Virus record (IMG/VR): IMGVR_UViG_3300035703_000020 | Location: 85,879-149,878 of that record | DNA from: a virus | Length of the DNA: 64,000 nucleotides | Strand: one strand, 5' to 3' | Notes under the pieces: generated by a model | Told to the model about the DNA's origin: nothing | Databases searched by the model: none | The model's input: the letters and a program-made list of their open reading frames with translations, nothing else | Shown here: positions 3,027-21,315 of the stretch, piece after piece | Layout of the letters: each line of letters begins with the position of its first letter | Numbering within the stretch: the stretch's first letter is position 1 | Position numbers and translations under genes: made by a program

Positions 3027-3195
3027 CATCCTCTGGAAGGAGTACTACGCCGCGGTCAAGGCCGGCAACGCCGACCGCGCCAAGCTGATTCTGAAGAAGC
3101 TGCACTCGGGCCCCTCCGGGACGTCCGGGTCGGTGTACATGCCCAACGGCGCGCAGGCGCCGGGTGGGTGCAAGCGATGCAGGAGGACGATCTGA
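3010..3195 (+). CDS. Small hypothetical protein with C-terminal Cys pair
   Basis: A 61-residue protein with a helical N-terminal half (WKEYYAAVKAGNADRAKLILKKL) that is similar in style to the 51-residue protein at 13609, followed by a Gly/Pro-rich tail ending CKRCRRTI. Its start lies within the preceding gene and its TGA overlaps the next ATG. Function unknown. Confidence 0.5.
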   Translation: MNNGRDILWKEYYAAVKAGNADRAKLILKKLHSGPSGTSGSVYMPNGAQAPGGCKRCRRTI

Positions 3196-3488
3196 TGGCC
3201 GACAGGAACGAGCGGATCATCGAGCAGAAGAGCAAGCTCGCCGAGAAGGTGCTGAAGGTGGCCGAGCAGGCGCTCGGCGACATCGAGGCGACCATGGGCG
3301 AGGCGCCCGTGCGCGACCTGATCAGCATCTTCAACTCCTCGATCAAGGTCCACCGCGACCTCATGAGCGACATCGTCGCCATCCAGGAGAGCGAGACGAA
3401 GGCCGAGAAGGAGCTGGCCAAGGACAAGGAGTACACCTCCAAGGTCGACGACCTGCTCAAGAAGCTGGGGCAGGGCAAGCAGGAATGA
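3195..3488 (+). CDS. Candidate small terminase subunit
   Basis: A 97-residue, almost wholly helical and coiled-coil-prone protein. The start at 3195 is preferred over the in-frame ATG at 3168 because it forms a TGATG junction with the upstream gene. Its stop overlaps the ATG of the large terminase. Small terminases are short helical oligomers normally encoded directly before terL, so position and fold type support this call. There is no clear HTH or other diagnostic motif, so it could be another helical packaging accessory. Confidence 0.45.
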   Translation: MADRNERIIEQKSKLAEKVLKVAEQALGDIEATMGEAPVRDLISIFNSSIKVHRDLMSDIVAIQESETKAEKELAKDKEYTSKVDDLLKKLGQGKQE

Positions 3489-5173
3489 GGCCCATCATCA
3501 CGCACGCGTCGCAGCTGGAGGAGCACTCGAGCTGGCGCGTGTACAAGCGCGGGCTCCGCGAGCTGGAGCTCATGGAGGCGCCGAAGAGCGTGCTGCAGGA
3601 CTACAGGTTCCGCGCGGCGCGCTCTTGCTTTCTGGCGTTCGCGGACGTCATGCTCGACGGCAAGCTGCAGGTCGCCGACTTCCACGAGATCATCGGCTCC
3701 GCGTTCGAGGACGTCGCCCAGCTGCGCTACCAGAGGCTGATCGTCAGCTGCGCGCCGCGCTCGGGCAAGTCAATGCTCGCCCAGCTGTTCGTCGCATGGC
3801 TCCTCGGCCACGACGAGCAGACGCAGCACATCATCGCGTCGTACGGCCAGCTCCTCTCGAACAAGTTCAACCGCGGGGTCAACGGCTACCTCCGCCACAA
3901 GCACTTCCAGCGCATCTTCCCCGAGTGGAGCGGCTTCCACCCGGACTCCAAGTACGACATGCGCGGCGGCGGGTTCATCCTCGCGACGTCCGTCGGCGGG
4001 GTGCTCACAGGCTTCACGGCCGGGACGCCGCACGAGGACAGCCCCGGCGTCGGCGCGATGGTCATCGACGACCCGCTGAAGGGCTCGGACTCCCGCGCCG
4101 CGTTCGAGGAGTTAGAGGACTGGTGGGGCGAGCAGGCGTCCACCCGGCGCACGAACCGCTGGGCCCAGCTCGTCATCGGCACCCGCTTCGGCGAGAAGGA
4201 CCTCCACGGCCTCCTGATGGACGGCGACGGCCTCTGGGACCCCGACGACAACCCGAAGGGCTGGCGGTGGGTGAACATCGAGGCGCTCTGCGAGAACGAG
4301 GCGACCGACATCCTCGGCCGGAAGAACGGCGAGTCGCACTGGCCCGGTAACGGCACCTTCACCGTCGACATGCTCCTCTCGCAGAAGAGGATCATGGGCT
4401 CGGACAAGTTCTCCGCGCTCTACCAGGGCAGGCCGACGGCGCAGGAGGGCTCGATCGTCAAGGCGGGCTGGATCAGCGTGAAAAGGCCCGAGGACTGCCC
4501 GGAGTTCGACATCACCTACCTGTCGCTCGACACGGCGTTCTCCGAGAAGCAGAGCGCGGACGAAAGCGTGATCGCGGTGATGGGCTACTCGCGCAAGCAC
4601 AAGGACGACGTCTACGTCCGCGAGATCATCAGCGGGCGGTGGGGCTTCCCAGACCTGCTCGCCATGCTCGAGCAGACGCGGAAATACTATGGGGCGAAGT
4701 TCCTCACGATCGAGCAGGCGGCGTCCGGCCAGTCGCTGATCCAGATGCTCGAGCGGGAGAGCAAGATACACATCCACGGATTCAAGCCGCTGCGGTCCAA
4801 GACGATCCGCCTGCAGACGGTGTCCCCGCTGTGGGAGGCCGGGCGCGTGCACTTCGTCGAGGGCGCCTGGACGGACGACTTCATTAAGGAGCTCACGGCC
4901 TTCCCCTTCGTGCCGCACGACGACCGGACTGACGCGGTCGTTTACGGGTTGACGTACTACATGTTCCACCTCGACGGTGGAACGCACGGCGACACGCTCC
5001 AGGCGATTGTCGGCGCCAAGGGCAAGTCACCAGGCCGCGGGCAGCTCACGGGCGAGTTCACGGAGCTGCGGAGCGGCAGGAAGCGCGAGCTGCTGACGCA
5101 CGGCGAGAGGGCACTGTACTTCGGCAAAGGCGGCAAGCGGTCGGGGCTCTCGTACGACATAGGCATGGACTGA
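3485..5173 (+). CDS. terL: Terminase large subunit
   Basis: A 562-residue packaging motor. The ATPase domain has a Walker A-like segment (CAPRSGKSMLAQ, about residues 87-98), a hydrophobic strand ending in acidic residues (GAMVIDDP, about 185-192), and a probable motif III or coupling region around VIGTRFGEKDL. The C-terminal nuclease domain shows the RNase H-like first acidic strand (YLSLDTAF) and a late DDRTDAVVYG segment supplying further metal ligands. The frame stays open upstream to 3164, but the ATG at 3485 overlaps the preceding stop (ATGA) and begins the conserved protein. The enzyme would translocate and cut concatemeric DNA at the portal. No portal gene is adjacent in this window. 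Confidence 0.93.
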   Translation: MRPIITHASQLEEHSSWRVYKRGLRELELMEAPKSVLQDYRFRAARSCFLAFADVMLDGKLQVADFHEIIGSAFEDVAQLRYQRLIVSCAPRSGKSMLAQLFVAWLLGHDEQTQHIIASYGQLLSNKFNRGVNGYLRHKHFQRIFPEWSGFHPDSKYDMRGGGFILATSVGGVLTGFTAGTPHEDSPGVGAMVIDDPLKGSDSRAAFEELEDWWGEQASTRRTNRWAQLVIGTRFGEKDLHGLLMDGDGLWDPDDNPKGWRWVNIEALCENEATDILGRKNGESHWPGNGTFTVDMLLSQKRIMGSDKFSALYQGRPTAQEGSIVKAGWISVKRPEDCPEFDITYLSLDTAFSEKQSADESVIAVMGYSRKHKDDVYVREIISGRWGFPDLLAMLEQTRKYYGAKFLTIEQAASGQSLIQMLERESKIHIHGFKPLRSKTIRLQTVSPLWEAGRVHFVEGAWTDDFIKELTAFPFVPHDDRTDAVVYGLTYYMFHLDGGTHGDTLQAIVGAKGKSPGRGQLTGEFTELRSGRKRELLTHGERALYFGKGGKRSGLSYDIGMD

Positions 5174-6027: not shown

Positions 6028-6828
6028 ATGGCAAAAATTAAAGGGGGTGAGCCGCATGATCACCTAGAGTTCGCATTGGTCGAATCTCAAACCTTTGTCA
6101 CCGATACAATGCCAGCTTGCAAAGAGCGTCGCAAGGAACGCAGGGCTAACGTGGCCCGCGCCGAGCTCGACACCCACCGCAACATGGACCTCATGCCGTT
6201 CATCCCGAGGACGGACAGGCAGGAGGAGCTCTGGACATGCCTCAACAAGAACACCGTCACGATCGCCGTCGGCCCGGCCGGCGTCGGTAAGACCCTCGTG
6301 GCCCTGCACTGGGGCCTCAGCTCGATCAGGGTCAACCAGATCGACAAGATCTACTACCTGCGCTCCGACGTCGGGGTCATGCACCAGCGGGGCCGCGGCG
6401 CGCTGCCGGGCACGATGGAGGAGAAGATGGCGCCGCTCGTCGGCCCGGTCTTCGACAACCTCAACGTGATCATGCGGTCGCACGGCGCCGCCGAGTACCT
6501 CGTCAACAAGAAGGTCGTCGAGCCGATCCTGCTCGAGGACGTCCGCGGCCGCTCGCTGTCGAACTGCCTGATCGTCTTTGACGAGGCGCAGAACGCCACG
6601 CCCGACCAGTGCAAGACCGTGCTGAGTCGCGTCGGCGAGAACGCCAAGGTGGTCCTCACGGGCGACACCAGGCAGATCGACCTCGACGTGTTCCAGACCA
6701 ACTGCGGGCTGATCGACGCCTACCAGCGCCTCGCGGGGCTCGACCAGGTCGGCAGGGTCCGGTTCACGGCCGACGACATCGTGCGCAACTCGGTGATCGC
6801 ACACATCCTCAGAAGGTATGACGACTGA
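6028..6828 (+). CDS. phoH: PhoH-like P-loop ATPase
   Basis: 266 residues. The Walker A motif is GPAGVGKT at about residues 83-90. Further motifs are the PhoH-typical RSDVGVMHQRGRGALPG segment, Walker B LIVFDEAQN at about 182-190, and a TGDTRQIDL motif resembling RecD/UvrD motif III. PhoH-like proteins are very common in cyanophages; an RNA helicase or RNA-processing role is proposed, but the function in phage is not settled. The first ATG has no clear ribosome-binding site, and an internal ATG (6184) starts the conserved core, so the true N terminus is uncertain. It overlaps the next gene by 11 bases. Confidence 0.92.
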   Translation: MAKIKGGEPHDHLEFALVESQTFVTDTMPACKERRKERRANVARAELDTHRNMDLMPFIPRTDRQEELWTCLNKNTVTIAVGPAGVGKTLVALHWGLSSIRVNQIDKIYYLRSDVGVMHQRGRGALPGTMEEKMAPLVGPVFDNLNVIMRSHGAAEYLVNKKVVEPILLEDVRGRSLSNCLIVFDEAQNATPDQCKTVLSRVGENAKVVLTGDTRQIDLDVFQTNCGLIDAYQRLAGLDQVGRVRFTADDIVRNSVIAHILRRYDD

Positions 6829-7594
6829 CGCGGACAGGTACGCATCCTCGTTCGACGGTGGGTCCCGGGAGGTTCTCGGGGCCCTCTTCGACTTCGCGGC
6901 GTGCGAGAGGCCGGACGGGTCCCGCTACGGGATCGCGGCCGGCAGGCGGTGCAGGAAGGGCCGCGAGGTCGACATCGAGGGCGCCGAGTGGGAGTACCTC
7001 ACGAAGGGCAACTACGGGGCCGTCGAGATCGACCGAAAGCAGGGGCTGATCCGCAAGACCAACGTGCCGGGCCGGAGCTTCGGCGAGCACGAGGCGGAGC
7101 TGCAGAGGATGATGGGCGACGCGGGCCACAGCCCGAAGCTCCACAGGGCGTCCGACAGCGAGATCGTCATGGACCTGGCGCCCGGGAAGACGATCTGGAA
7201 GGACTACAGGCCGTCCGAGGGCGAGAAGGGCGTGAGGTTCAACGAGGCGCAGGCCTCGGCCGCGGCGAAGGCCGTGCTGTTCCTCCACCGCAAGGGCTTC
7301 TACCACGGCGACATGCACAGCCTGCAGTGGATGGTGGACGGCGACAGGCCCATGCTGATCGACTTCGGCCTGAGCGGTAAAACGGCCTCGGACCCGAGGA
7401 AGGCGCTGCAGGACTGGACGAAGGGCGCGGCGTTCATGAACCTCGACGCCGTCGGCGGGGAGGGCGGCAGGCGCGTCCGGGACTACGTCGGGCGGTACAG
7501 GGAGGCGGGGGCGTCCAAGCCCGCGAAGGACAGGCAGGCCAAGCAGGAGCAGGTCGCCAGGGAGTACCTGGACTGGGTCGGCTCGCTCGGGTAA
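6818..7594 (+). CDS. CRKG-tagged kinase-like protein (small)
   Basis: 258 residues. The N-terminal Cys tag occupies about residues 25-48 (DFAACERPDGSRYG then CRKG). The remainder reads as a compact kinase-like fold: a likely ATP-binding Lys in LIRKTN, an EHEAEL helix Glu, a catalytic-loop-like HGDMHS (His163, Asp165) and DFG (Asp182). The usual catalytic-loop Asn is replaced (HGDMHSLQW), so activity is less certain than for the tagged kinase at 11221. This size resembles RIO/Bud32-type or lipopolysaccharide-kinase-like phage kinases. It may phosphorylate host proteins early in infection; that is inference. Confidence 0.72.
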   Translation: MTTDADRYASSFDGGSREVLGALFDFAACERPDGSRYGIAAGRRCRKGREVDIEGAEWEYLTKGNYGAVEIDRKQGLIRKTNVPGRSFGEHEAELQRMMGDAGHSPKLHRASDSEIVMDLAPGKTIWKDYRPSEGEKGVRFNEAQASAAAKAVLFLHRKGFYHGDMHSLQWMVDGDRPMLIDFGLSGKTASDPRKALQDWTKGAAFMNLDAVGGEGGRRVRDYVGRYREAGASKPAKDRQAKQEQVAREYLDWVGSLG

Positions 7595-7637
7595 ACCCTA
7601 CGAGGCGGGCTCCCGTCCCGCGTTAAAGCAGACTGCC

Positions 7638-8246
7638 ATGAGAAAAGACCGCTTCACCGACGAGGCCCTGCGGAACGCGCGGGCGCTCGCCGAACTGAAA
7701 TACTCCGAGAACCCCGAGGAGCAGACGGCCTTCGCGGAGGCCTACGACTTCGCGCGCTGCCAGCGGCCCGACGGCACCTTCTACGGCACCAGCGGCCAGT
7801 GCCGCAAGGGCCAGGAGGCCGGCGCCAACAAGAAGCTCAAGACGGACTTCCGCAAGGAGGTGGCCGCCGGCGCCGCCAAGCGCAAGGTGCGGGACGAAAA
7901 GATCACGGCCAGGCAGGGCCGCGACGCCGAGCTGCGGACGCAGATCCGCGACGCGATCGTCGCGCAGCGCCCGATCAAGGCCGAGCTCGACCGCCGCGAG
8001 CGGGCCCTCCGCGAGGTGGAGCGCCGCGTGAAGAAGGACCCCTCGAAGGAGAACAGGGCCAACATGAGGACGCTCGCCGCCGCCGTGCGGGAGAAGGAGC
8101 GCGAGTACAACAAGGCCGAGCGGGAGATCGAGAAGATGGCGCGCGAGCGGGCGCGCCTCGAGCGGCAGCGGCAGCGCGAGCTGATGACCCCGGCCCAGAG
8201 GGCCGAGGAGCGCCGCGTCGGCAAGATCATCAAGGAGCGCGGCTGA
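7638..8246 (+). CDS. CRKG-tagged coiled-coil protein
   Basis: 202 residues. The tag is at 37-58 (DFARCQRPDGTFYG then GQCRKG). Everything after it is a long, highly charged Arg/Lys/Glu-rich coiled coil, roughly residues 65-200, without Pro. No enzyme motif is seen. The upstream spacer contains GGGTAAAC at 7589 and a GTTAAAG sequence near 7621. The TGA overlaps the next ATG. An internal virion or DNA-associated role is possible from the basic coiled coil. Confidence 0.65.
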   Translation: MRKDRFTDEALRNARALAELKYSENPEEQTAFAEAYDFARCQRPDGTFYGTSGQCRKGQEAGANKKLKTDFRKEVAAGAAKRKVRDEKITARQGRDAELRTQIRDAIVAQRPIKAELDRRERALREVERRVKKDPSKENRANMRTLAAAVREKEREYNKAEREIEKMARERARLERQRQRELMTPAQRAEERRVGKIIKERG

Positions 8247-8839
8247 TGGCCAGGGTACACAGCAACATCTTCGACAACTTCAGCGAGGAGGCCCTCGAGG
8301 CGCTGGACTTCGCCCGTTGCCAGCGGGCCGACGGCTCCTACTACGGGACCTCGGGCCAGTGCCGCAAGGGCAAGGAGGCGGGCGACAAGACAGCTGAGCA
8401 AAAGAAAGTTCCAACGGCGAAGCCCAGCGGAGTAAGCAACGAGCAGGCGATGAAGCTCCGCGCCTCCCTCACCAAGCAGATCGGCGACGCAGCAAAGTCC
8501 CGCGACCTGAACAAGACCAACAATCTGATGCAGGCGCTCGCGGCCGTCGAAGGTCAGCTCAAGGCCAGAGGCGTTAATCTCGCCGGAGGCGGGGCGATGG
8601 CCGAGGCCAAGGCCGGCGAGCGCGAGATCGCCCGCGGCGAGAAGTTCATCGGCCGCGCCCGCGTCGCGATGAAGAAGCTCTCCAACGAGCGCAATGTCGC
8701 CCAGATGCGCCTGCAGATCGGGCGCATGAACCAGATCGACGAGGCCATGAAGCGCCTCCGCAAGAAGGCTGAGCAGGTCGGCGGGCGGCTCGACGAGCTG
8801 ACCGGCACCAAGGGCCAGGGCAAGTACTACGTCCCCTGA
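8246..8839 (+). CDS. CRKG-tagged helical protein A
   Basis: 197 residues from ATG 8246, which overlaps the upstream TGA; an open frame further upstream is a shadow. The leader MARVHSNIFDNFSEEALEAL is followed by the tag at 21-42 (DFARCQRADGSYYG then GQCRKG). The body is Lys/Arg/Ala-rich and helical, with no catalytic motif. The 125 bases encoding the leader and tag (8263-8387) are identical to 8861-8985 in the next gene, while the bodies differ completely. Confidence 0.65.
   Translation: MARVHSNIFDNFSEEALEALDFARCQRADGSYYGTSGQCRKGKEAGDKTAEQKKVPTAKPSGVSNEQAMKLRASLTKQIGDAAKSRDLNKTNNLMQALAAVEGQLKARGVNLAGGGAMAEAKAGEREIARGEKFIGRARVAMKKLSNERNVAQMRLQIGRMNQIDEAMKRLRKKAEQVGGRLDELTGTKGQGKYYVP
8263..8387 (+). 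repeat. 125-bp direct repeat, copy 1 (tag-coding)
   Basis: This segment encodes the FDNFSEEALEALDFARCQ leader plus CRKG tag. It is base-for-base identical to 8861-8985, including synonymous positions. Flanking bases diverge at once, so the repeat is bounded to the tag module. Confidence 0.95.
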
Positions 8840-8846
8840 GGCCGGC

Positions 8847-9365
8847 ATGGCGATACACGACAACATCTTCGACAACTTCAGCGAGGAGGCCCTCGAGGCG
8901 CTGGACTTCGCCCGTTGCCAGCGGGCCGACGGCTCCTACTACGGGACCTCGGGCCAGTGCCGCAAGGGCAAGGAGGCGGGCGACAGGCCGGCCGAGGCGC
9001 CCAAGGGCGACCGGGCGCCGGTGCTCAAGGACCGCATCGCCAAGGCTAAGGCGTCAGGTGACAAGAAGAAGCCTGAGATCGACGAGAGCAAGCTCTACAG
9101 GCTGAATCAGAAGCAGAACCAGCTGGCCGAGAGAATCGGGCGCGAGCGGTCCATGCTGGCCCGCATGAGCACGGGCAAGGCGGCTGCCGAGCTCCGCAAG
9201 CGGCGCGAGGACCGCATCAAGAAGCTCTCGCGGTCGCTCAAGCGGCTGGGCGAGCTGCGAACCGAGGCGAACAGGCGGCTCGACAAGGGCGCCAGGAAGT
9301 CCGGCAGGCCGAGGCCGCTGATGGCCCCCAACTGGGGTACCAGCCCCGGGAGACCCACCAAGTAG
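8847..9365 (+). CDS. CRKG-tagged helical protein B
   Basis: 172 residues. It has the same leader and tag as the upstream gene (tag at 20-41), encoded by a 125-base exact copy. The body is a basic coiled coil that ends in a short Pro/Gly-rich tail (TSPGRPTK). It lies 7 bases after the previous stop. No enzyme motif is seen. The pairing of a conserved tag with an unrelated body suggests the tag is a transferable sorting signal. Confidence 0.65.
   Translation: MAIHDNIFDNFSEEALEALDFARCQRADGSYYGTSGQCRKGKEAGDRPAEAPKGDRAPVLKDRIAKAKASGDKKKPEIDESKLYRLNQKQNQLAERIGRERSMLARMSTGKAAAELRKRREDRIKKLSRSLKRLGELRTEANRRLDKGARKSGRPRPLMAPNWGTSPGRPTK
8861..8985 (+). repeat. 125-bp direct repeat, copy 2 (tag-coding)
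   Basis: Exact second copy of 8263-8387 at the start of the gene at 8847. Identity at synonymous sites points to recent duplication or gene conversion of the tag alone. Confidence 0.95.
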
Positions 9366-9369
9366 GCCC

Positions 9370-9789
9370 ATGAACAACTTCGGACGCATCAACCCCGAGG
9401 CCCTCGAGTGGGCCGAGAACCCCGAGTGGGCCGAGAAGTACGGCGGCATCGACTTCCGCCCGCCCCAGTCCGTGGCTGACGCGGCGGCGCGCGGGCTCGA
9501 GCTGCGCAAGAAGACGGGCCGCGGCGGCTTCAGCACGAAGCAGGCGGCCGCCGAGGGCGTGGGCTCCGGCGTGCAGCGCGCCGCGTCGCTGAAGAACAGG
9601 CAGTCGCTGTCGCCGGCGACCATCGGCCGCATGGTGAGCTTCTTCGCCCGCCACTCGGCGTACAAGAAGGACCACACGACGGACCCCCCGTCCAACAGCC
9701 TCATCTCGTGGCTGCTCTGGGGCGGCGACCCGGGCAGGGCCTGGGCCGAGAAGGTCAAGGCGCAGATGGACCGGGCCGATGAGAAGTAG
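9370..9789 (+). CDS. Conserved phage-type hypothetical protein
   Basis: 139 residues without the Cys tag. The middle segment (IDFRPPQSVADAAARGLEL, a Gly-rich stretch, then SGVQRAASLKNRQSLSP) and the C-terminal ISWLLWGGDPGRAWAEKV resemble a small domain often seen in phage head or internal proteins. I recognise the pattern but not a function. It overlaps the next gene by 11 bases and sits within the tagged-protein operon. Confidence 0.6.
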   Translation: MNNFGRINPEALEWAENPEWAEKYGGIDFRPPQSVADAAARGLELRKKTGRGGFSTKQAAAEGVGSGVQRAASLKNRQSLSPATIGRMVSFFARHSAYKKDHTTDPPSNSLISWLLWGGDPGRAWAEKVKAQMDRADEK

Positions 9790-11218
9790 GCTACCGCAGC
9801 ACGGCGGCTGGGACACCGGCCTCGAGGCGAAGGCCAGGGAGGTCCTCGCGCTCCGCTACTCTGAGTCGAACGGGCACCTGGACTACACGATCTGCCAGCG
9901 CGCGGACGACTCCCGGTACGGGATCGGCGAGGGCAAGGAGTGCCGCAAGGGGAAGGAGGTCAGTCGCGAGGAGGTGCTCACGATGCTGACGCGCGAGGGG
10001 CTCGTGCGCACGGACAAGCAGCGCGAGAGGCTCAGGCAGCTCGACGACAAGACCCTTGCGAAGGTCGCCGACAGGGCGGTCACCCGCGCCGAGCAGGGCA
10101 CGCTGAAGATCGCCGGGAAGATCCAGGAGAAGCAGGGGCTCGACGAGGGGCAGGCCAAGCGCGCCGCCACGGCCGTCCGCGCGCTGAAGTACGACCCGTC
10201 CGGCAGCAAGAAGGAGGGCGGCGCCAACCTGCAGGACCCGGGCGAGGCCGCGAAGTACGCCGAGTTCTACGCGAACAAGCAGGACCTCAAGTACAAGTCG
10301 CCCTTCGACACCGACCCCAAGGTGGTCAAGGCGACGCTAGCGCAGCTCAAGGAGGAGATGCCGGCGTCCGACTACCAGAAGCTGATGACCGCCCTCGGCG
10401 GCAAGGGCAGCCCGACCAAGGAGCAGCTCGATGCCGCCGGTTGGAAGGGCCGCGGCGAGCGCGCCGAGGCCGTGCTCAAGTCCCTCATGGACAATGACTT
10501 CAAGGACGTCATGGGCAAGGAGCTGTCATGGCGCCAGGGCCTGCAGCTCGACCACAAGCGCGCCGGGTCCACCGGCGGCAGCGACCGCCCGGACAACTGG
10601 ATCTGGATCTCGACCGCGTCGAACCAGGTCAAGGGTGGCATGGAGGCCGCGGCCAAGAAGCGCCAGGGCACCGCGGTCGAGAAGGAGGACTTCATCCGCC
10701 GCGGGCTGATCGAGAAGCTCCAGGCCAACGCCAGGATGACGCCCGACCAGGTCCGCGAGGCCAAGGCCGCCGGGTCGATGGGCGCCTCGGCCAAGGCCGA
10801 GAAGGCCGCCGCCATGCGCGACAATCTCCCGCTGATGACCCCGCAGCAGCGGGCAGAGCGGATCCGGGACGCCAGCATCGACGACCTGAAGGCCATGCTG
10901 AAGGGCTCCGTCAACCCGGACAAGACCAACCCGGCGACCGGCCGCAAGCCGTCCTACCGCCCCGTCCTCAGCGGCGGCGGCGGCGCGCGGGTCCGCAAGG
11001 ACTACGGCACCGGCCCGCAGATGAAGTCGCTGATGCGGCTGCGCTGGGGCGAGAAGCTCGAGGAGAACGACATCAAGAACATCGGCGCCATGCTCGGGGC
11101 GTCGACCGGCAGCACCAAGAGCGCCAAGGACAAGCTCGAGGAGCTCCTGGGCAACTTCCCGCCGACCAGTGGCCTGACGGCCGCCGAGCGGGTCGCGATC
11201 ATCAAGGAGGCAGGCTGA
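9779..11218 (+). CDS. CRKG-tagged HNH-like protein
   Basis: 479 residues. The tag is at 35-58 (DYTICQRADDSRYG then ECRKG). In the middle (about residues 250-285) is an HNH-like signature: LQLDHKRAG with His259, then a DRPDNWIWIS segment and SNQVKG, matching the DH..N..NxxKG pattern of HNH nucleases. The flanks are helical and basic. The ATG lies within the end of the previous gene. It could be a DNA nuclease delivered with the genome to attack host DNA, or a morphogenesis nuclease. The tag links it to the neighbouring kinases. Confidence 0.68.
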   Translation: MRSRLPQHGGWDTGLEAKAREVLALRYSESNGHLDYTICQRADDSRYGIGEGKECRKGKEVSREEVLTMLTREGLVRTDKQRERLRQLDDKTLAKVADRAVTRAEQGTLKIAGKIQEKQGLDEGQAKRAATAVRALKYDPSGSKKEGGANLQDPGEAAKYAEFYANKQDLKYKSPFDTDPKVVKATLAQLKEEMPASDYQKLMTALGGKGSPTKEQLDAAGWKGRGERAEAVLKSLMDNDFKDVMGKELSWRQGLQLDHKRAGSTGGSDRPDNWIWISTASNQVKGGMEAAAKKRQGTAVEKEDFIRRGLIEKLQANARMTPDQVREAKAAGSMGASAKAEKAAAMRDNLPLMTPQQRAERIRDASIDDLKAMLKGSVNPDKTNPATGRKPSYRPVLSGGGGARVRKDYGTGPQMKSLMRLRWGEKLEENDIKNIGAMLGASTGSTKSAKDKLEELLGNFPPTSGLTAAERVAIIKEAG

Positions 11219-11220
11219 CC

Positions 11221-13566
11221 ATGGCTAAACTGACGCAGCACGGCGCCTTCGACGCCGACAGTGAGAGGAGGGCCCGCGAGGAGCTCCTCACCGAATTCAC
11301 CGAGGGCCGGTCCTGGGCGGACGCTTGCGGCGACTGGTCGGCAGAGGACTTCGGCGAGATCGCGGACGGATTCGACTTCGCGCAGCTCTGCCAGAAGCCG
11401 GACGGCAAGATCTACGGGACCCAGGGCCAGTGCCGCAAGGGCACGCCCATCTCCTACCGCCCGGGCGACCGCCAGGGCGACGTCTACAACAAGGGCCGCG
11501 CGGCCGGCATGCGGGTCGAGTCGATCCTCGACGAGAACAAGCGCCTCCGCCTCGAGAAGGGCCTCAAGATGGTCAAGGGGCCCGAGGCGGTCCAGTCGCT
11601 CGTCCGCAGGCTGAACCAGCGGATGGGCGTGGCGCAGAAGCCCGACGACCAGAAGAACGTCAAGACACCGGAGCAGGCGGCCAAGGCGGCCAAACCTCCC
11701 GAGACCCCGTCGCGCCAGGCGTCCCAGGCGCTGCGCGACCTAGTCAAGGCCGGCGACCGCCTCGACGCCAGGGCCGCGCAGAGCGCCGCAGACCGCCTTC
11801 AGGCGGCGAGGGCGGCGGCCGAGAAGCCCGCGTGGCAGCGGGAGCGGGACGTGATGAACAGGGGCCCAGCGGACCCCGCGGGGCAAGAAAAGCAGCTGAA
11901 GTTCAACCTCAGGGTCGCCCAGAACAAGGGGACGCAGTCGCAGATAGTCAGGGCGCAGAACGAGCTCCGCGAGTTCCGCAAGCAGCAGCGGATGGTCAAG
12001 GAGGCAGCCAGGCCAGGGGCCAAACCCGCGGCCGCCAAGCCCGCGGCTAACGCGGCGAAGGAGAAGCCCTCGATGCAGGTCAACGCGCGGTTCCTGAAGA
12101 AGGAGACGACGCAGAAGCTGCAGGAGTACCTCGACGGCCGCAAGCTGTACGCCTACCAGCGCAAGGCGATCGAGGAGGAGCTCAAGCGCCGCGAGAAGGC
12201 CGGCCAGGCCGACGTGCGCGTCCGCCGCGAGGCCCCCAAGGCAGCTGCCCCGAAGGCGTCTCTCGGCGACAGGGCGGCGCGCAAGGCCGCCATCGACGAC
12301 GTCAACCGCCAGATCGAGGCCATCCGCCGCCGGCGCAACGAGCCGGCCTACCAGAAGCCCGACCAGAAGAAGTTCCTCGACAGCCTGGAGATCGGGCTGG
12401 TCCGCCGCCGCATGGACATCGAGGCCGGCGTCGCCCTGCCGAAGGCCGGCGCGAAGTCCCTCAACGACACCTCAGCCCTGGCGAAGCGCGCGCTCCAGCC
12501 CGGCTCCGCCGGCCGCGAGGCCCGCCTGAAGCTCGGCGAGAAGGTCAGGCTCGAGCGCGCCAAGGCCGGCATCGGCCCGGAGGTCGCGTCGGCCAAGCCT
12601 GCCCGCGTCGACCAGAAGCTGCTCCAGGCTCCCACCGACAAGCTCCAGGCGATCCTCCGCCGGGGCGACCTCGGCGCCGGTCAGCGCAAGAAGATCGAGG
12701 AGGAGCTCGGCGGCCGCGGCGTGACGCCCGCAAGGCCCGTGAAGATCACCGCCGGCATGACCACCGACGCGGCCGTCAAGGCGGGCTGGAAGCTCGACCG
12801 CGCGGTCAGGGACTACGACCCGATCGCCGTCTACAGCCAGACAGGCAACCAGCTGCTTGCGAAGGGCGCGTTCGGCGCCGCCTACCGCACCGACGGCCCG
12901 CCGCCCGGCGTCATCAAGCAGGGCAAGATCGGCGAGCACGAGGCGGAGGTCTGGCAGAAGCTGCAGGGCACCGGCCGCGTCCCCGAGTTCCACGGCGCCG
13001 TCGTCAGCCCGAACATGCGCGTCGTCGGCTCCGGCTACGGTGGCCACGTGAAGGAGGGCAGCGGCTACCTGGGCATCGGCGAGGCGAAGGGCGTCCCCGT
13101 GGCGAAGTACAGCCCGCGCACGAACGAGGAGAGGAACAAGGTCCTCGAGGAGTACATCCGCGCCCGCCGCGACATCCACCTAGCCGGCGTCGCCCACAAC
13201 GACATGCACGGCAACAACGTCTTCTATGACAAGGCGACCGGCAGGATGCAGCTCATCGACTTCGGCCTGGCGCAGCCGAGCTACAAGGCCGCCCTCATGG
13301 AGGCCTTCGGCACCAACCAGGGCGACTGGCAGTCCGAGCGGTTCATCGGGAACTACTCGGGGCGCGGGGGCGAGGCGCCCGCCTACTACCGCTTCCGGCG
13401 GAACCAGGAGCGGGTCAACCGCGCGCTCGAGGAGCTCGACATCGACACCAACCGCATGCGCGGGATGGGCATCCGGAACAAGCCGGAGCACATCGACCGG
13501 GTCCTCAACGGGATGTCCGAGCAGGCCGCCAAGGCGTACGTAGAGATGCTGTACGAGGGCGTCTAG
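11221..13566 (+). CDS. CRKG-tagged large kinase-like protein
   Basis: 781 residues from ATG 11221; the frame is open upstream but is a shadow there. The tag is at 52-74 (DFAQLCQKPDGKIYG then GQCRKG). A long basic, Ala/Lys-rich, coiled-coil linker spans about 90-500. The C-terminal domain is kinase-like: Gly loop AKGAFGAAY from about 547, Lys in VIKQGK, Glu in GEHEAEVW, catalytic loop HNDMHGNNV (His659, Asp661) and DFG (Asp680). All the expected catalytic positions are present, so activity is plausible. Unlike most phage kinases it carries a long linker and the shared N-terminal tag. Confidence 0.78.
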   Translation: MAKLTQHGAFDADSERRAREELLTEFTEGRSWADACGDWSAEDFGEIADGFDFAQLCQKPDGKIYGTQGQCRKGTPISYRPGDRQGDVYNKGRAAGMRVESILDENKRLRLEKGLKMVKGPEAVQSLVRRLNQRMGVAQKPDDQKNVKTPEQAAKAAKPPETPSRQASQALRDLVKAGDRLDARAAQSAADRLQAARAAAEKPAWQRERDVMNRGPADPAGQEKQLKFNLRVAQNKGTQSQIVRAQNELREFRKQQRMVKEAARPGAKPAAAKPAANAAKEKPSMQVNARFLKKETTQKLQEYLDGRKLYAYQRKAIEEELKRREKAGQADVRVRREAPKAAAPKASLGDRAARKAAIDDVNRQIEAIRRRRNEPAYQKPDQKKFLDSLEIGLVRRRMDIEAGVALPKAGAKSLNDTSALAKRALQPGSAGREARLKLGEKVRLERAKAGIGPEVASAKPARVDQKLLQAPTDKLQAILRRGDLGAGQRKKIEEELGGRGVTPARPVKITAGMTTDAAVKAGWKLDRAVRDYDPIAVYSQTGNQLLAKGAFGAAYRTDGPPPGVIKQGKIGEHEAEVWQKLQGTGRVPEFHGAVVSPNMRVVGSGYGGHVKEGSGYLGIGEAKGVPVAKYSPRTNEERNKVLEEYIRARRDIHLAGVAHNDMHGNNVFYDKATGRMQLIDFGLAQPSYKAALMEAFGTNQGDWQSERFIGNYSGRGGEAPAYYRFRRNQERVNRALEELDIDTNRMRGMGIRNKPEHIDRVLNGMSEQAAKAYVEMLYEGV

Positions 13567-13570
13567 CCCG

Positions 13571-13576
13571 CATAAT
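13571..13576 (+). promoter_or_regulatory. Candidate -10 box (CATAAT)
   Basis: CATAAT lies 5 bases after the stop of the large tagged kinase gene and 33 bases before ATG 13609, in the longest spacer of this block. A similar spacing is seen for the CATAAT/TATAAT boxes before hli, the gene at 27697 and the gene at 43667. No clear -35 box. Confidence 0.35.
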
Positions 13577-13608
13577 ACCACGAAGAGCACCGACACCCAC
13601 ACCACACC

Positions 13609-13764
13609 ATGGCCAGCAAGTACGTGGAGCTGATGACCAAGCGCAAGGAGGCCCTGTTCAGGGGCGACGAGGCCACGGCCGAGAAGCTCCTGACCCTCGC
13701 CGAGAAGCTCGCGGAGCGCGGCAAGGTCTCCGACGACGAATTCCTCGCGGCAGCGTACCTATGA
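13609..13764 (+). CDS. Small helical protein (51 aa)
   Basis: A 51-residue protein beginning MASKYVELMTKRKEALF and ending FLAAAYL, two amphipathic helices. It resembles the 61-residue protein at 3010 in its helical KAGNADRAKLI / RGDEATAEKLL pattern. ATGA overlap with the next gene supports translation. Function unknown. Confidence 0.55.
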   Translation: MASKYVELMTKRKEALFRGDEATAEKLLTLAEKLAERGKVSDDEFLAAAYL

Positions 13765-14372
13765 GCGGCCGAGCACCAGAGCAGCAGGTAGTCGACTACC
13801 TCGAGGCGGCCGGCTACAGGCCCGACTCCATCATCCGCTACCTCGAGGCGCAGGTCGCCCGCGAGTGGGCGTCCGCCGACTTCGCCGAGTGCGGACCGGG
13901 CGAGAAGATGACGTTCGGCGTCTGCCGCAAGATCGGTGAAGCCCCCGCGGCCCAGCCCGCGCAGCAGGGCGCCACGCCGGCGCAGCCCCGGGCTCAACAG
14001 CCAGGGCAGAGGGCGGCGGGCCAGCAGCCCAAGCCGAAGGAGGCGCAGAAGTCCGGCATGGAGGAGAAGCTCGAGAAGGCCGCGAAGGCTCAGGGCTCCG
14101 ACGCCACCAACAACCGCAAGGTGGTGATCGACGGCAAGGCGTACGGCTGGGCGATCCAGAACGGCAAGCCGATCATGGTCGAGTGGGGCGCCGTCGCCGG
14201 CATCAAGAAGGTCGGGCCAAAGCAGGCCAAGCCCAAGCGCGGCGGCCGCCGCGGTGGCGCTGGCGGCGACAACGCGGGCCGCATCGCGGGACTGAAGAAG
14301 GCGCTCGAGAAGCAGGTCAACGAGGCCGGGCGCCAGGCCATCCTGAAGCAGATCCAGGAGCTGGGCGGGTAA
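13761..14372 (+). CDS. Degenerate-tag basic protein
   Basis: 203 residues. Residues 40-57 (ADFAEC, then FGVCRK) look like a shortened CRKG tag. A Gln/Pro/Ala-rich linker follows, then a small beta-like segment (VVIDGKAYGWAIQNGKPIMVEWG), then a basic Gly/Arg-rich C terminus with a final helix. The composition is suited to nucleic-acid or capsid-interior contact. The stop lies inside a GGGTAAGA motif (14367-14374). Confidence 0.6.
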   Translation: MSGRAPEQQVVDYLEAAGYRPDSIIRYLEAQVAREWASADFAECGPGEKMTFGVCRKIGEAPAAQPAQQGATPAQPRAQQPGQRAAGQQPKPKEAQKSGMEEKLEKAAKAQGSDATNNRKVVIDGKAYGWAIQNGKPIMVEWGAVAGIKKVGPKQAKPKRGGRRGGAGGDNAGRIAGLKKALEKQVNEAGRQAILKQIQELGG

Positions 14373-14402
14373 GACACGCGGGTACCAACCCACGGAAACA
14401 AC

Positions 14403-15134
14403 ATGTCCGGATTCGGGAGCTTCTCGCAGGAGGCCTACGAGCAGCTGCGGCAAGCATACTCTGACCAGCTCCAGCGCGCAGACGAGATCGAGGAGGCCGG
14501 CGTCCAGATCGGCCAGGACAAGCTCGGCGTCGAGACCGCGCCCGTCCGCAGCGACTGGCTCGACAAGACCGGCCTCTGGAAGTACCCCGACGGCCGCGGC
14601 GAGCGCCAGGACGTCGAGCAGCGGCAGCAGGACCTCCTGGCCGCCCTCCGCGACGAGGACGGTAACCTCCCCGACAACGATGACGACGAGCAGGACCTCG
14701 ACGCGATGTCCGACGAGGAGATCGACGCCCTGATCAGCCAGGTCCTCGACGAGATCGACGGAGACGACGACGAGGAGGAGGAGGAGCCCGGCGGCGACGA
14801 CCTCGTCTCCAGGATCCTCGAGGCCATCGGCGACGGCGGGCTGAGCGACGAGGAGATCGACGCCGCGATCGACCAGATCCTGGGCGAGGGCGACGCCGCC
14901 GAGGATGACGACGACGAGGGGGAGGAGAGCGACGAGCCGTCCGCCGACGAGATCGCGTCCAGGATCGCCGAGCTCAGGGCCGAGCTGGCCGCACTGTCCG
15001 AGGGCGGCGGGGACGAAGAAGAGGACGAGGACTACGAGCCCGAAGAAACTCAGGGCGACGAGGAGGAAACCGAACCCGACAACGACACCGACATCGAAGA
15101 CGAGGAGGTGACCTCCGATGATGAACCTAACTGA
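14403..15134 (+). CDS. Very acidic protein with tandem helices
   Basis: 243 residues, dominated by Asp and Glu. Two related helix units (SDEEIDALISQVLDE at about 103-117 and SDEEIDAAIDQILGE at about 146-160) sit between poly-acidic runs, and the C terminus is almost wholly acidic. It overlaps the next gene by 17 bases. The composition suggests a scaffold, a DNA-mimic or a partner for the basic internal proteins upstream. No family is recognised. Confidence 0.55.
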   Translation: MSGFGSFSQEAYEQLRQAYSDQLQRADEIEEAGVQIGQDKLGVETAPVRSDWLDKTGLWKYPDGRGERQDVEQRQQDLLAALRDEDGNLPDNDDDEQDLDAMSDEEIDALISQVLDEIDGDDDEEEEEPGGDDLVSRILEAIGDGGLSDEEIDAAIDQILGEGDAAEDDDDEGEESDEPSADEIASRIAELRAELAALSEGGGDEEEDEDYEPEETQGDEEETEPDNDTDIEDEEVTSDDEPN

Positions 15135-15603
15135 TACGCTCGTGGGGCAGGTCATCCCCGTCGACGCGCTCGAGGCCAACAAGAAGCGCCGCGAGCGGGT
15201 CGAAGCCCTGATCCCCAAGGACCGCGACAACTACATCGTCGGCGACGACGTGATGCGCGAGATCATGGGCCGCAAGCGCGCCCGCATGGAGATGGCCCGC
15301 CAGAACCGGGTCAACTACCAGGAGGAGGCCTACGGCATCAACCACCGCGAGTGGTCCGGCGACATGCGCAAGGCGCTGTCCGAGGGCAAGATGAAGGGCG
15401 GCTTCGCCGGCCCCGACACGTCCTTCCCGATCGCGTCCCCAGGCGACGTGGCGGCGGCGTGGTCGTCCGTCGGCCGCGCCAAGGACCCCGACGCCACGAT
15501 GCGGAAGATCATCAAGATCGCGAAGGACAACGGCTGGGAGCAGGGCCTGCCTAAGTCCGTCCGGGACCGCTTGAAGGCGGGCAAGTCCGGGCTCCCCGAG
15601 TAA
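15118..15603 (+). CDS. Conserved phage protein with SFPIASPGD-type domain
   Basis: 161 residues. The C-terminal half (DTSFPIASPGDVAAAW, GRAKDPDATMRKIIKIAKD) matches a small helical domain common in phage head-proximal proteins, where it may be fused to proteases or scaffolds. The N-terminal half is basic and charged. No catalytic motif is visible, so I do not call a protease. Confidence 0.55.
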   Translation: MMNLTDTLVGQVIPVDALEANKKRRERVEALIPKDRDNYIVGDDVMREIMGRKRARMEMARQNRVNYQEEAYGINHREWSGDMRKALSEGKMKGGFAGPDTSFPIASPGDVAAAWSSVGRAKDPDATMRKIIKIAKDNGWEQGLPKSVRDRLKAGKSGLPE

Positions 15604-15619
15604 CACACTGGAGGCAGCC

Positions 15620-16084
15620 ATGCCAACTTTCCTCGAACCACTCTACCCGGCCCTCGCCGGCATCCTGATCGGCGTCGCCACGATGGGCGCCAAGAAGGTG
15701 CTGGAGAAGGTCAACGCGCGCAAGTACGCGCCGCTCCTGGCCAAGGTCTACGACGTCGTCGACCCGCTGTTGGACAAGTACTACACAGGCTGGGACGGCA
15801 GCACGATCGACACCGTGCTGGAGCTCGCCTTCTACTCCGTCGGCGACGGCCAGCTGAGCAAGGAGGAGGCCCAGGCCGCCGTCCAGATGGCCAAGGAGAA
15901 GTTCCTGCCGGACGTCGCCAAGTCCAAGAAGCTCGACCCCAATACGCCTGAGGGCCGCAAGTCCCTCGAGATCGCCGAGATGGTGCTCAAGATGGAGGAG
16001 GGCGTGGACAAGGACAAGCTAGTCGACCTAGCCAAAGCATCGGTACCCCTCGAGCCCGCACAGCGGCTGCTCGGGCTGTTCTGA
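15620..16084 (+). CDS. Small protein with hydrophobic N terminus
   Basis: 154 residues. Residues 8-26 (YPALAGILIGVATMGA) could insert in a membrane. The rest is soluble and helical, with two segments rich in Lys and Glu. A Shine-Dalgarno (TGGAGG) precedes it. Next to another single-membrane-helix gene, it might be part of a lysis or holin group, but this is weak. Confidence 0.45.
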   Translation: MPTFLEPLYPALAGILIGVATMGAKKVLEKVNARKYAPLLAKVYDVVDPLLDKYYTGWDGSTIDTVLELAFYSVGDGQLSKEEAQAAVQMAKEKFLPDVAKSKKLDPNTPEGRKSLEIAEMVLKMEEGVDKDKLVDLAKASVPLEPAQRLLGLF

Positions 16085-16104
16085 TCTTGGAGACTTAGGC
16101 CACA

Positions 16105-17723: not shown

Positions 17724-17888
17724 ATGCCAAAGTCGTTCCAGGAGGCCTTCAACGAGTGGAAGGCCGATGACCGGTACAAGATCGGGGACGACATAGGCTG
17801 GGAGTTCGCCGACGCGAAAGAGGCCGGTCCTACGCCGGCCGACAGTTCCTCAACGACACAGCAAGATGGCCCAGCGCATCCAGCATAA
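17724..17888 (+). CDS. Small hypothetical protein (54 aa)
   Basis: A 54-residue acidic protein starting MPKSFQEAFNEWKADDRYKI. It lies 37 bases after GGGTAAAA (17687-17694) and overlaps the start of the large fibre gene by 23 bases. Function unknown; it could be a leader gene for fibre translation. Confidence 0.5.
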   Translation: MPKSFQEAFNEWKADDRYKIGDDIGWEFADAKEAGPTPADSSSTTQQDGPAHPA

Positions 17889-20800
17889 GCGCTCCTCGAT
17901 CCTCGGGAAGCGCCCGGCCGAGCAGTATTTGGAACCCGGGGAGCTGGCGCTCAACACCAACGCCAGCGACCCGGGCGTCTTCTTTGAGACCAACAACGGC
18001 GAGATCGCCAAGGCCGGCCCGACGTCGATAGGCCCGCAGCCCCCGGTGAGCGAGGTCGGCTACGGCCCGGGCGAGTCGTGGTACGACAGCGGCAACGGCA
18101 CACTCAACCTGTGGGTGCCGGCGCTGGAACAGTGGGTCCCCGTGTCGTCCCCGTTCTTCGGCGGCTCCATCACGGCCATCTTCGTCGGCTCGGAGTTCCC
18201 CCAGGCCACCGACGACCTCTCGAACGACGGCTACGCGCGCCCGTTCGTGTCGCTGAACCGCGCGATGATAGAGGTGGCCAGGCGCTCGATCCTGCGCGGC
18301 CGCCCGGACGACGCGTTCAACGCCAGGTTCTCGGTGTTCCTGCTGCCGGGCAACAACGTCGCCTATAACGAGCCGGGTCTGACCTTCTCCGAGTTCGAGG
18401 CACAGACCGAGGTCTTCGTCGAGGACCAGGCGCTCACGCAGAAGCAGCTGGCCCAGTTCAACTCGCCCACCGGCGGCGTGATCGTCCCGAGGGGCACCAC
18501 GATCTTCGGCCTCGACCTGCGGAAGACGATCATCAACCCGACCTACTACCCGGTCTGGACGCGCGACGCGTACGAGAACGAGCCCGAGACGCTAGCCGCC
18601 CGCTCCGCCGTCCTGCGCTGGACCGGCAACTCGTACTTCACGTCGTTCACCTTCCGGGACAAGGTCTCGGAGTGCTCGGTCACCGAGATCACCGGCCAGA
18701 GCTTCGAGGTCGCCGTGCTGCGCACCCTGCGGCCGCACGGCTTCCGCTCGCTCGTGACCACGCTGGAGGACGAGGACCAGATCCTCGACGGCGACAAGGC
18801 CGAGCTGGTCTACCCCGACGGCATCTCCCGCTTCTACAACGGCGTCCCCACGGTGCCGCAGGAGGAGTACTACGCCGAGCCGATCGACGCCTACCGGTTC
18901 AGGCTGCGAAAGGTGCAGAGCGGTCTCGCCGTGCTCCGCAGCGAGCTGCCGGAGGCGCCCGTGGCCGGCACGTCGCCGAGCCTGTTCCTGAACTTCCGCG
19001 TAAGGCTCGGCACCGCCCACCGCCTCACCGCCATCGAGTACGCGGAGGACCTGGACCTCAACTCCCTCTACGACAAGGTGCAGCGCGCCTTCTCGACCCT
19101 CTCGTTCTCCGGCACGGCGTCCAACGCCGAGATCTCCGGGGGCGAGACCATCATCGTCGCCAGCACGCCAGAGACCCCCAACGTAGAGACCAACAGCGTC
19201 GACAACGCGTCCCCGTACGTCTTCAACGTCTCGCTGCGGTCGCAGTGGGGGATGTCGGGCATGTGCGTCGACGGCGGCGAGATCGGCGGCTTCAAGTCGG
19301 CCCTCAGCTGCAATTACACGGCGGTGTCCGTCAACAACGACCCCGACGTGTACGAGGTCTACGACGACCAGCAGTGGAAGTCACTCCGCGAGGCCTACGC
19401 CGAGTCCGTCGGGTTCCCGGTCTCCGAGACCACGCGCGAGCAGGCGATGAACTACCTCGTGCGGACCGTCAAGACCGACGACATCCGGTTCTTCCTCAGG
19501 CAGGCGTATGACATCCCGGGCCAGGACGGCAAGTCCTCGGGCCAGGTCAGCGAGCTGTCGGACACCCGGCACTACGCGACACTGGCGACGAACGGGGCCT
19601 TCGTGCAGATCGTGTCGTCGTTCGCCATCGGGCTGGCCGTGAACTACTGGACAAAGGCCGGCGGCGAGATCGCCGTGACCAACGCCAACTCCAACTTCGG
19701 CGGCGTCGCCCTCCGCGCCGAGGGCTTCTCCGGCATCGGGACCACCGGCGGCGCGCTCGACCCCGACCGCGGCTTCACCGTGCAGGGCGTGCGGCGCCCG
19801 TCGGTCGTGACGCAGAAGATGGTCGAGGACAGCGTGGTCAAGCGCGCCGTCAACTCGCGCATCGCCTCGACCACGAGCACCACCATCACCCTGGCCGAGC
19901 CCTTCTACGGGCTGACCATCGCCCCGTTCACGCTGCGCAACGGGACCTTCATCTACGTCCAGGACTCGCGCGATGGCACGGAGTACAGGGCCCAGCTGGC
20001 CACGACCGGGGCCGTCGTCAGCGAGGACGGGCTGACGATCTCCGTGGTCGACACGACCAGCCAGATCCACACCGCCATCGTCGGCGGGCTCAACCCGGAC
20101 TTCCTGACGCTGCCCTACATCAAGCGCTTCAAGGACCCGCGCGCGCCGATCGACCGGCAGTACAGCCTCTGGGTGCAGAACACATCGCAGTTCCACCGCC
20201 CGCCGCAGCAGCAGTTCGTCCTCCGCTTCGCCGAGAAGCCCCAGACGGGCGTGGCCAACCTGGTCCGCCCCAACATGCAGCTCGACCCGGGCGAGAAGGG
20301 CGGCTGGGCGCACCTGTTCCAGATCACCGACGCCAGGACCAAGCGCGAGGGCGATAACCCGAACGGGATCGAGCCCCTGATCACGCCGATCGTCGGCACC
20401 GAGAGCTACTACGTGACGATCGCGCTCGTCGACGGCTTCCGCCCGTACGTGACCGTCTCCGACAATGGCTTCACCGACGACGCGACCATCGACCACGCGT
20501 CCGGCCAATACTGCACCTACAACGACCGCCTCTTCTACCCGCAGGACAACGACCTCGCGCCCGCCGCGCTGAAGCTCGACCCCACGAACGACCGCTCCGT
20601 GTGGACGCGCTCGAAGAACTTCGAGCTGTGCTCGCCCGTCGACGAGGCGTGGTACGGCGCTGACTCGCTCAGCACGGCGACGGAGGACGTCTACGTGGCG
20701 GCCTACCCCGAGAACGCCACCTACCCCCGCGGCCTGCAGTACGAGATCCAGGACATGTCGGCCGACCTCGTCGTCGACGAGGACGACGGCACCCCGACCC

Positions 20801-21315
20801 TCGGGATCGTGACGGGCGGCGTCGCCGACGTGGACAAGTACGACCCGTGGTGGTCGCCCTCGAAGCTCTCGATGGCACGCCTGCTGCAGCTGCTCGGCTT
20901 CACGTTCGCGGACATCGGCTCGATGCTGGTCCCGCAGTTGTGGTCCTCGAGGAACCTCCCGGTCACCTCCATGCCCGACGTCACCGGCGGCGGCTACGCG
21001 ATCACCACCGGCACGTGGCCCGTCGAGTTCAACCGGCCGTCGACCATCCGCTGCGGCAACCACACGTGGGAGTGGTGCGGCTACATCAACTACACCAAGG
21101 GCCTCCCGCAGTACCAGACCACCCAGCTGTCCGTGCGCGAGCGCTTCGACTTCATGCAGACGGCCCTCTGGGGCGGCCAGGTGTACTCCACGGGCACGAA
21201 CGAGAAGGGCGAGTACGTCTTCTCGGGTAAGACAGTGGCTGCCGGGACAGGCGACATCCTGCTGAACACCAACGTACCGCTGGTGCCAGCCGCGCCCCCA
21301 GCCCCAATCAGCTAG
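17866..21315 (+). CDS. Large fibre/appendage protein with Mtd-type N-terminal module
   Basis: 1149 residues. Residues 1-55 have the module [KR]RSS...KRP.P..L..GELALN.N..DPGVFFE...G...K.GP shared with the proteins at 21363, 24752 and 25159, and similar to the N-terminal virion-anchoring domain of major tropism determinants. The central region is long and beta-rich, with a solenoid-like portion (VIVPRGTTIFGLDLRKT) as in pectate-lyase-fold appendages. A C-terminal globular domain follows. It is the largest gene of the fibre cluster and probably a virion adsorption structure. No enzymatic residues are recognised. Confidence 0.7.
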   Translation: MAQRIQHKRSSILGKRPAEQYLEPGELALNTNASDPGVFFETNNGEIAKAGPTSIGPQPPVSEVGYGPGESWYDSGNGTLNLWVPALEQWVPVSSPFFGGSITAIFVGSEFPQATDDLSNDGYARPFVSLNRAMIEVARRSILRGRPDDAFNARFSVFLLPGNNVAYNEPGLTFSEFEAQTEVFVEDQALTQKQLAQFNSPTGGVIVPRGTTIFGLDLRKTIINPTYYPVWTRDAYENEPETLAARSAVLRWTGNSYFTSFTFRDKVSECSVTEITGQSFEVAVLRTLRPHGFRSLVTTLEDEDQILDGDKAELVYPDGISRFYNGVPTVPQEEYYAEPIDAYRFRLRKVQSGLAVLRSELPEAPVAGTSPSLFLNFRVRLGTAHRLTAIEYAEDLDLNSLYDKVQRAFSTLSFSGTASNAEISGGETIIVASTPETPNVETNSVDNASPYVFNVSLRSQWGMSGMCVDGGEIGGFKSALSCNYTAVSVNNDPDVYEVYDDQQWKSLREAYAESVGFPVSETTREQAMNYLVRTVKTDDIRFFLRQAYDIPGQDGKSSGQVSELSDTRHYATLATNGAFVQIVSSFAIGLAVNYWTKAGGEIAVTNANSNFGGVALRAEGFSGIGTTGGALDPDRGFTVQGVRRPSVVTQKMVEDSVVKRAVNSRIASTTSTTITLAEPFYGLTIAPFTLRNGTFIYVQDSRDGTEYRAQLATTGAVVSEDGLTISVVDTTSQIHTAIVGGLNPDFLTLPYIKRFKDPRAPIDRQYSLWVQNTSQFHRPPQQQFVLRFAEKPQTGVANLVRPNMQLDPGEKGGWAHLFQITDARTKREGDNPNGIEPLITPIVGTESYYVTIALVDGFRPYVTVSDNGFTDDATIDHASGQYCTYNDRLFYPQDNDLAPAALKLDPTNDRSVWTRSKNFELCSPVDEAWYGADSLSTATEDVYVAAYPENATYPRGLQYEIQDMSADLVVDEDDGTPTLGIVTGGVADVDKYDPWWSPSKLSMARLLQLLGFTFADIGSMLVPQLWSSRNLPVTSMPDVTGGGYAITTGTWPVEFNRPSTIRCGNHTWEWCGYINYTKGLPQYQTTQLSVRERFDFMQTALWGGQVYSTGTNEKGEYVFSGKTVAAGTGDILLNTNVPLVPAAPPAPIS

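Follow-up and report, generated by a model that had tools for sequence, protein, structure and literature searches.

The tagged gene block

The DNA considered here (the window, 64,000 nucleotides) corresponds to bases 85,879–149,878 of the 149,878-bp IMG/VR virus record IMGVR_UViG_3300035703_000020, and contains a cluster of genes whose products share a two-cysteine tag with the motif CRKG, here called T1. The source virus is a 150-kb cyanomyovirus related to the Synechococcus phage S-CBWM1, the closest annotated relative found. The window (65.5% GC) carries PhoH, terminase homologue, tail-fibre, primase and sigma-factor genes, and S-CBWM1 has homologues, in similar order, of the terminase, PhoH, portal, Mu I-like protease, MuF-like protein, capsid, sheath, primase and sigma factor. 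The tagged genes form a conserved late block flanked by terminase/PhoH and baseplate genes (Table 1), and a PhoH, terminase and/or baseplate-wedge homologue adjoins tagged genes in many loci, including those of the source phage.

An earlier note on this DNA had proposed seven tagged proteins, and for six of them the shared motif has been recovered independently. A T1 profile hidden Markov model, built from 66 tags of other phages after all window rows had been taken out, matches exactly six of all open reading frames (ORFs) in the window (6818, 7638, 8246, 8847, 9779, and 11221, named by their first base), with expectation values (E) from 1e-9 to 5e-23; the next-best match, at E 1.9, falls in the acidic protein 14403, on its N-terminal element. 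A DNA pattern encoding DGxxYGxxGxCRKG is matched four times in the window versus none in 100 shuffles, the tags at 6818 and 9779 falling outside it with their longer YGIxxG spacing. No T1 copies were found in the remainder of the record. The seventh protein, 13761, had been regarded as a degenerate copy; this assignment was rejected, as the T1 profile misses it and it belongs to a separate conserved family of about a dozen loci, in which a hairpin of the form C-x-(P/E)-x-(E/T/Q)-K-M-x-(F/Y/W)-G-x-C-R-(K/R) is followed by one constant body.

Table 1. Features of the block and of its flanks (window positions).
Feature	Position	Strand	Remarks
Terminase large subunit ORF	3164..5173	+	S-CBWM1 gp103 homologue; upstream neighbour of the block
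PhoH-like ATPase	6028..6828	+	Delimits the block upstream; synteny with S-CBWM1 gp105
T1-tagged protein kinase-like protein, 258 residues	6818..7594	+	Only two cysteines, both in the tag
T1 tag of 6818, DFAACERPDGSRYGIAAGRRCRKG	6890..6961	+	Long-spacing variant
T1-tagged basic, charged, coiled-coil-like protein	7638..8246	+	Isoelectric point (pI) 10.2; tag 7746-7811
T1-tagged basic helical protein	8246..8839	+	pI 9.9; tag 8306-8371, preceded by NFSEEALEAL
T1-tagged basic protein	8847..9365	+	pI 10.4; tag 8904-8969
Untagged cysteine-free protein	9370..9789	+	Cluster member; N-terminal element MNNFGRINPEALEW
T1-tagged HNH-nuclease-like protein, 479 residues	9779..11218	+	Tag 9881-9952
Large T1-tagged protein, 781 residues	11221..13566	+	C-terminal kinase-like domain; tag 11374-11442
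Small conserved cysteine-free gene	13609..13764	+	3' of the kinase gene
Two-cysteine hairpin family member	13761..14372	+	Hairpin DFAECGPGEKMTFGVCRKIG at 13878-13937, resembling the T1 hairpin
Very acidic conserved core protein, cysteine-free	14403..15134	+	Starts with MSGFGSFSQEAYEQL, the N-terminal element of the tag proteins
Tail-fibre/baseplate-wedge protein	17866..21315	+	S-CBWM1 gp116 homologue; downstream edge of the block

Form and distribution of T1

The T1 tag comprises about 24 residues with two cysteines, and five positions (C25, Y33, G34, C39, and G42 in the numbering of 8246) are invariant in 72 aligned tags. A short helix, M-x-G-x-F-S-x-E-A-L, and then F-(S/A)-E usually stand before it, so that the 20–50 residues before the tag, described earlier as variable, are variable only in part. 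Of 74 distinct ORFs, 69 have the tag no more than 120 residues from the upstream stop; it is internal or duplicated in the proteins of loci L056, L093, and L046, and tandem tag-body fusions exist. The AlphaFold model of the tag is a short helix with a beta-hairpin, at a mean predicted local distance difference test (pLDDT) score of 71. No structural relatives were seen (best Foldseek E 1.4, best PDB profile E 0.19), nor does the tag correspond to any domain seen in Pfam, NCBIfam or PHROG. No description of T1, or of the second tag presented below, was found in the literature searched, which does not prove that none exists.

A search of IMG/VR with the same DNA pattern returned 76 stretches on 55 contigs, and 75 distinct T1 proteins are counted when those of the window and S-CBWM1 are included; in L064, seven tagged genes lie within one 14-kb locus. 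Among about 85,000 cellular genomes of GTDB, the pattern is present on only two contigs, one from a Gemmobacter metagenome-assembled genome and one from Prochlorococcaceae. The latter (L139:186-668), which is apparently chromosomal, encodes a small protein that has two copies of a T1-like motif and apparently a signal peptide. This protein is the sole convincing T1 copy among 151 related genomes, and a host origin of T1 was rejected on these two counts.

A second tag and its exchange with T1

A second tag, T2, has four cysteines (CxKGKSCGxxCI...C) and is found in S-CBWM1 on the kinases gp161, gp162, and gp113 and on the HNH proteins gp106 and gp174, the gene for gp174 lying between those for the MuF-like protein and the major capsid protein. 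The annotated starts of gp113 (L012:20398) and gp161 (L013:17830) are probably too far downstream, and upstream ATGs add the T2 tag. The T2 DNA pattern occurs in 42 stretches, spread over 39 contigs; T1 is present as well on 13 of these.

Both tags ride on common kinase and HNH families. The nearest differently tagged relative of the window protein 11221 is a T2 protein of L114, with 41% identity over 261 residues (E 6e-51), and the T2 proteins of L131 and L107 match a T1 kinase of L087. Another example is the body cluster of 9779, in which T2 stands instead of T1 in S-CBWM1 gp106 and gp174. On the kinase tree the tag label needs four changes, at least three of which well-supported branches make unavoidable; every bootstrap tree needs more than one. 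Finally, L046 (IMGVR 3300005525_000034) holds an ORF of at least 1452 residues in which two T2 tags and one T1 tag separate putative effector segments that look ParB-like and GNAT-like by eye. Given the shared families, the tag changes on the kinase tree, and the mixed modules of L046, T1 and T2 look functionally equivalent.

Proteins carried by the tags

The earlier proposal that the tag is transferable among effector-like bodies is well supported. Once the tags are removed, the bodies fall into about 25 clusters (Blast clustering); the alternative that the tag is part of one common enzymatic domain was rejected on this evidence. The largest clusters are kinases, HNH-like nucleases, and NMNAT/cytidylyltransferase-like proteins. 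In the window the bodies are likewise unrelated, comprising two kinase-like domains, a weak HNH match, and basic or coiled bodies.

Over T1 and T2 together there are about 30 kinase-like proteins. Kinase bodies of the tagged set match Pfam, NCBIfam, and PHROG families, the two of the window having weak Pfam matches; the AlphaFold model of 6818 (mean pLDDT 83) reaches a Foldseek probability of 1.00 to kinases (PknG, RIO), and both bodies have the catalytic D and the DFG-type motif of the kinase fold (HGDMH and LIDFG in 6818, HNDMH and LIDFG in 11221). The PHROG HNH match of 9779 is weak (E 0.011), and L025, from the same body cluster, reaches the Pfam HNH cut-off. The tagged protein gp39 of S-CBWM1 is annotated as NMNAT/cytidylyltransferase-like, and the body of L020 is a clear ADP-ribosyltransferase (ART), above the Pfam cut-off (3.4e-12). 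The bodies of L067, L056, and L029 align with residues 994-1320 (of 1440) in a PHROG family of minor head proteins (2e-22) and resemble ARTs by eye only; those of L056, L058, L093, and L046 look GNAT-like by eye, with no support from Pfam. At least two effector segments per polypeptide are apparent in L046 (without Pfam support), L056, and L093, which is not the rule in the window.

Cysteine depletion

Outside the tags, cysteines number 30 in 21,580 residues of T1 proteins (0.14%) and 4 in 5,194 residues of T2 proteins (0.08%), as against 1.30% in enzymes of S-CBWM1, 1.24% in enzymes of the source phage, and 0.4–0.6% in structural proteins, the comparison sets having been hand-picked from annotations. 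The contrasts with enzymes give Fisher p values of 1e-34 and 4e-19, and a further contrast gives p 4e-10. In a matched comparison within S-CBWM1, three tagged kinases have no cysteine outside the tag and the untagged kinase gp173 has seven. In five of the six tagged window proteins the tag holds all cysteines. Among the listed proteins of the stretch 6818-16434, cysteines occur only in the tags, in the hairpin of 13761, and at residue 36 of 11221; the upstream PhoH protein has five. Because the bodies are nearly free of cysteine, the tagged proteins are suggested to live in an oxidising setting with their tag cysteines paired.

Links to virion proteins and known delivery systems

The bodies of L067, L056, and L029 are homologous to the C-terminal part of P-SS2 gp030 (33% identity, E 5e-19), a protein with MuF and zeta-toxin domains that mass spectrometry has detected in P-SS2 virions (96.5 peptides on average; PMC2784084). 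P-SS2 gp030 has only four cysteines in 1,499 residues, all of them in its MuF module. In the Planktothrix phage PaV-LD, seven proteins encoded between the portal and tape-measure genes carry a T2-like module, and in their 3,768 residues a single cysteine lies outside the tags; two of these proteins are named virion proteins in the record, a naming that may rest on similarity.

Virion-delivered effectors are already known as a class, through MuF effectors, polyvalent proteins, and head-packaged ARTs (PMC5512222, PMC9503650); of T1 and T2 themselves no description was found. The MuF minor head proteins (SPP1 gp7 / Mu gpF, for example P-SS2 gp030) also place exchangeable effectors behind a shared delivery module, and gp030 shares with the tagged proteins one body domain family and the confinement of cysteines to the delivery module. 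However, T1 and T2 are hairpins of about 24 residues on many separate genes rather than one large minor head protein, and the phage with the tags has its own small MuF-like gene as well. No MuF domain (Phage_Mu_F / SPP1 gp7) was matched in the window proteins or in the 80-member tagged set; P-SS2 gp030 does match.

The internal head proteins of T4 and its Alt protein resemble the tagged proteins in their short N-terminal signal, late genes, and ART cargo; moreover, the injected Alt is poorer in cysteine (0.44%) than its cell-made relatives ModA and ModB (1.5%). On the other hand, the T4 capsid-targeting sequence is strictly N-terminal and cleaved, whereas the tag is a cysteine hairpin that is sometimes internal or repeated, and the prohead protease is Mu I-like here, with no T4 cleavage consensus seen. 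Kinases, ARTs, and nucleases encoded near virion genes are likewise the cargo of polyvalent phage proteins (Iyer et al., 2017, PMC5512222), and L046, long and multi-domain with tags before putative effector segments, is similar to them; most tagged proteins, by contrast, have one effector each, and T1/T2 were not found described in that work. In the portal-to-tape-measure region of PaV-LD, late proteins likewise have the four-cysteine module ahead of ART and metalloprotease-like bodies, but with T2 only and with an additional shared N-terminal domain. This domain (PTEVQMKL...FKDA.RPR.FEF), present in ORF061R, 065R, 078R, and 079R (L097, L098), ends before T2 in W-E-x-F-S-x-G-Y-x-(Y/F)-R-x-D-A, which recalls the FSEG element before T1.

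A proposed role in loading the virion

It is rather probable that T1 and T2 are interchangeable, probably disulfide-bonded modules that load co-injected effectors into the virion. Each tagged gene would then encode a tag, a linker, and an effector; the proteins would be made late, bound through the tag into the assembling particle, and held there while the tag cysteines are oxidised to a disulfide. They would be ejected with the DNA, and the kinases, nucleases, ARTs, and nucleotidyltransferases would act on the host at once, T2 doing the job of T1 and being able to replace it on the same effector. Packaging and injection, which the earlier note had proposed as well, are supported only indirectly, by the effector repertoire, the late gene position, the domain shared with a virion protein, the swapping of tags, and the cysteine depletion. 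More tentatively, a family of interchangeable, disulfide-forming tags may be a general cyanophage loading code for virion-borne effectors, by which cysteine-purged enzymes joined to T1 or T2 are carried in the particle and delivered.

Several points weigh against the loading of tagged proteins into virions. The virion naming in PaV-LD is possibly a matter of similarity. The confidence of the tag model is only moderate and no structure matches it. Since some tags are internal or duplicated, the tag is not a classic cleaved N-terminal signal, and many tagged bodies are short, basic or coiled, with no recognisable effector. In addition, the cysteine contrasts depend on hand-chosen sets, and the test of the first-element pattern was partly after the fact. 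In that test a pattern for M-x-G-x-F-S-x-E-A-L has four matches among about 2,500 possible starts of the record (9370, 11221, 14403, and one internal GTG), 9370 and 14403 having been noticed before it was written.

Two- and four-cysteine modules can also bind zinc, and a common N-terminal module on many enzymes resembles docking domains, which suits the internal position of some tags as well. The tag could thus be a domain for docking, zinc binding or redox sensing within the infected cell that brings phage enzymes together on a shared partner, with nothing packaged, but this is unlikely, since it leaves unexplained the near absence of body cysteines, the matching cysteine signature of P-SS2 gp030, found in virions, and the late position among virion genes. 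Cysteine depletion would also fit an oxidising host compartment (periplasm or thylakoid lumen), to which, or to the host surface, the tag might direct or retain the proteins instead of the virion, and the only clear cyanobacterial match is the small protein with two motif copies and an apparent signal peptide. Phage T1 proteins, however, start with a FSEEAL-type helix and not with a signal peptide, kinases and NMNATs need ATP, which is cytoplasmic, and the convincing copy occurs in just one of 151 related genomes, which makes such targeting improbable. Recombination among duplicated genes may have shaped the block, as 8246 and 8847 share 143 nt at 96% DNA identity limited to the N-terminal tag region, and the tandem tag-body fusions agree with it. 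Even so, it is highly improbable that the tag is only a conserved seam spread in this way through a fast-changing island and without a role in delivery: the invariant C, YG, C, and G columns in 72 divergent tags, and the presence of the unrelated T2 in place of T1 on the same body, indicate selection for function.

The loading of effectors through T1 and T2 would be of biological significance because the cargo that cyanophages inject with their DNA is largely unknown. If it is true, sequence alone would suffice to list what uncultured cyanophages inject, the readable tag giving candidate injected kinases, ARTs, NMNAT-like enzymes, and nucleases, with S-CBWM1 as a cultured model. It would also constitute a delivery module that is portable and distinct from the T4 and MuF systems, and the depletion of cysteine would be a simple new marker for virion-borne effectors.

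Neighbouring genes

The very acidic character of 14403 (38% D+E, pI 4.1) had been noted earlier, together with the suggestion of a scaffold or of an antitoxin-like partner. The acidity stands, and the antitoxin is not supported: homologues of 14403 are conserved neighbours in more than 20 loci, where the N-terminal element is kept. As a conserved core gene that shares this element with the tag proteins, 14403 fits a putative scaffold or virion protein better. In other phages the domain of 9370 recurs in late proteins, some of which contain ParB. Further downstream, a cysteine-rich protein (16602-17216, + strand) contains a G-K-V-V-K-x-x-K-Q-A-V-A-I-A-L-S segment, and a similar segment precedes T1 in the L092 protein; Pfam DUF6496 is matched by one protein of the tagged set. 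Outside the block, a gene at 58834-59889 (+) is psbD-like (photosystem II D2) by sequence and counts toward the cyanophage identification. Finally, the gene at 28782-30689 (+) shows a strong match to the phage tryptophan-halogenase family (PHROG 2928, E 8e-127).

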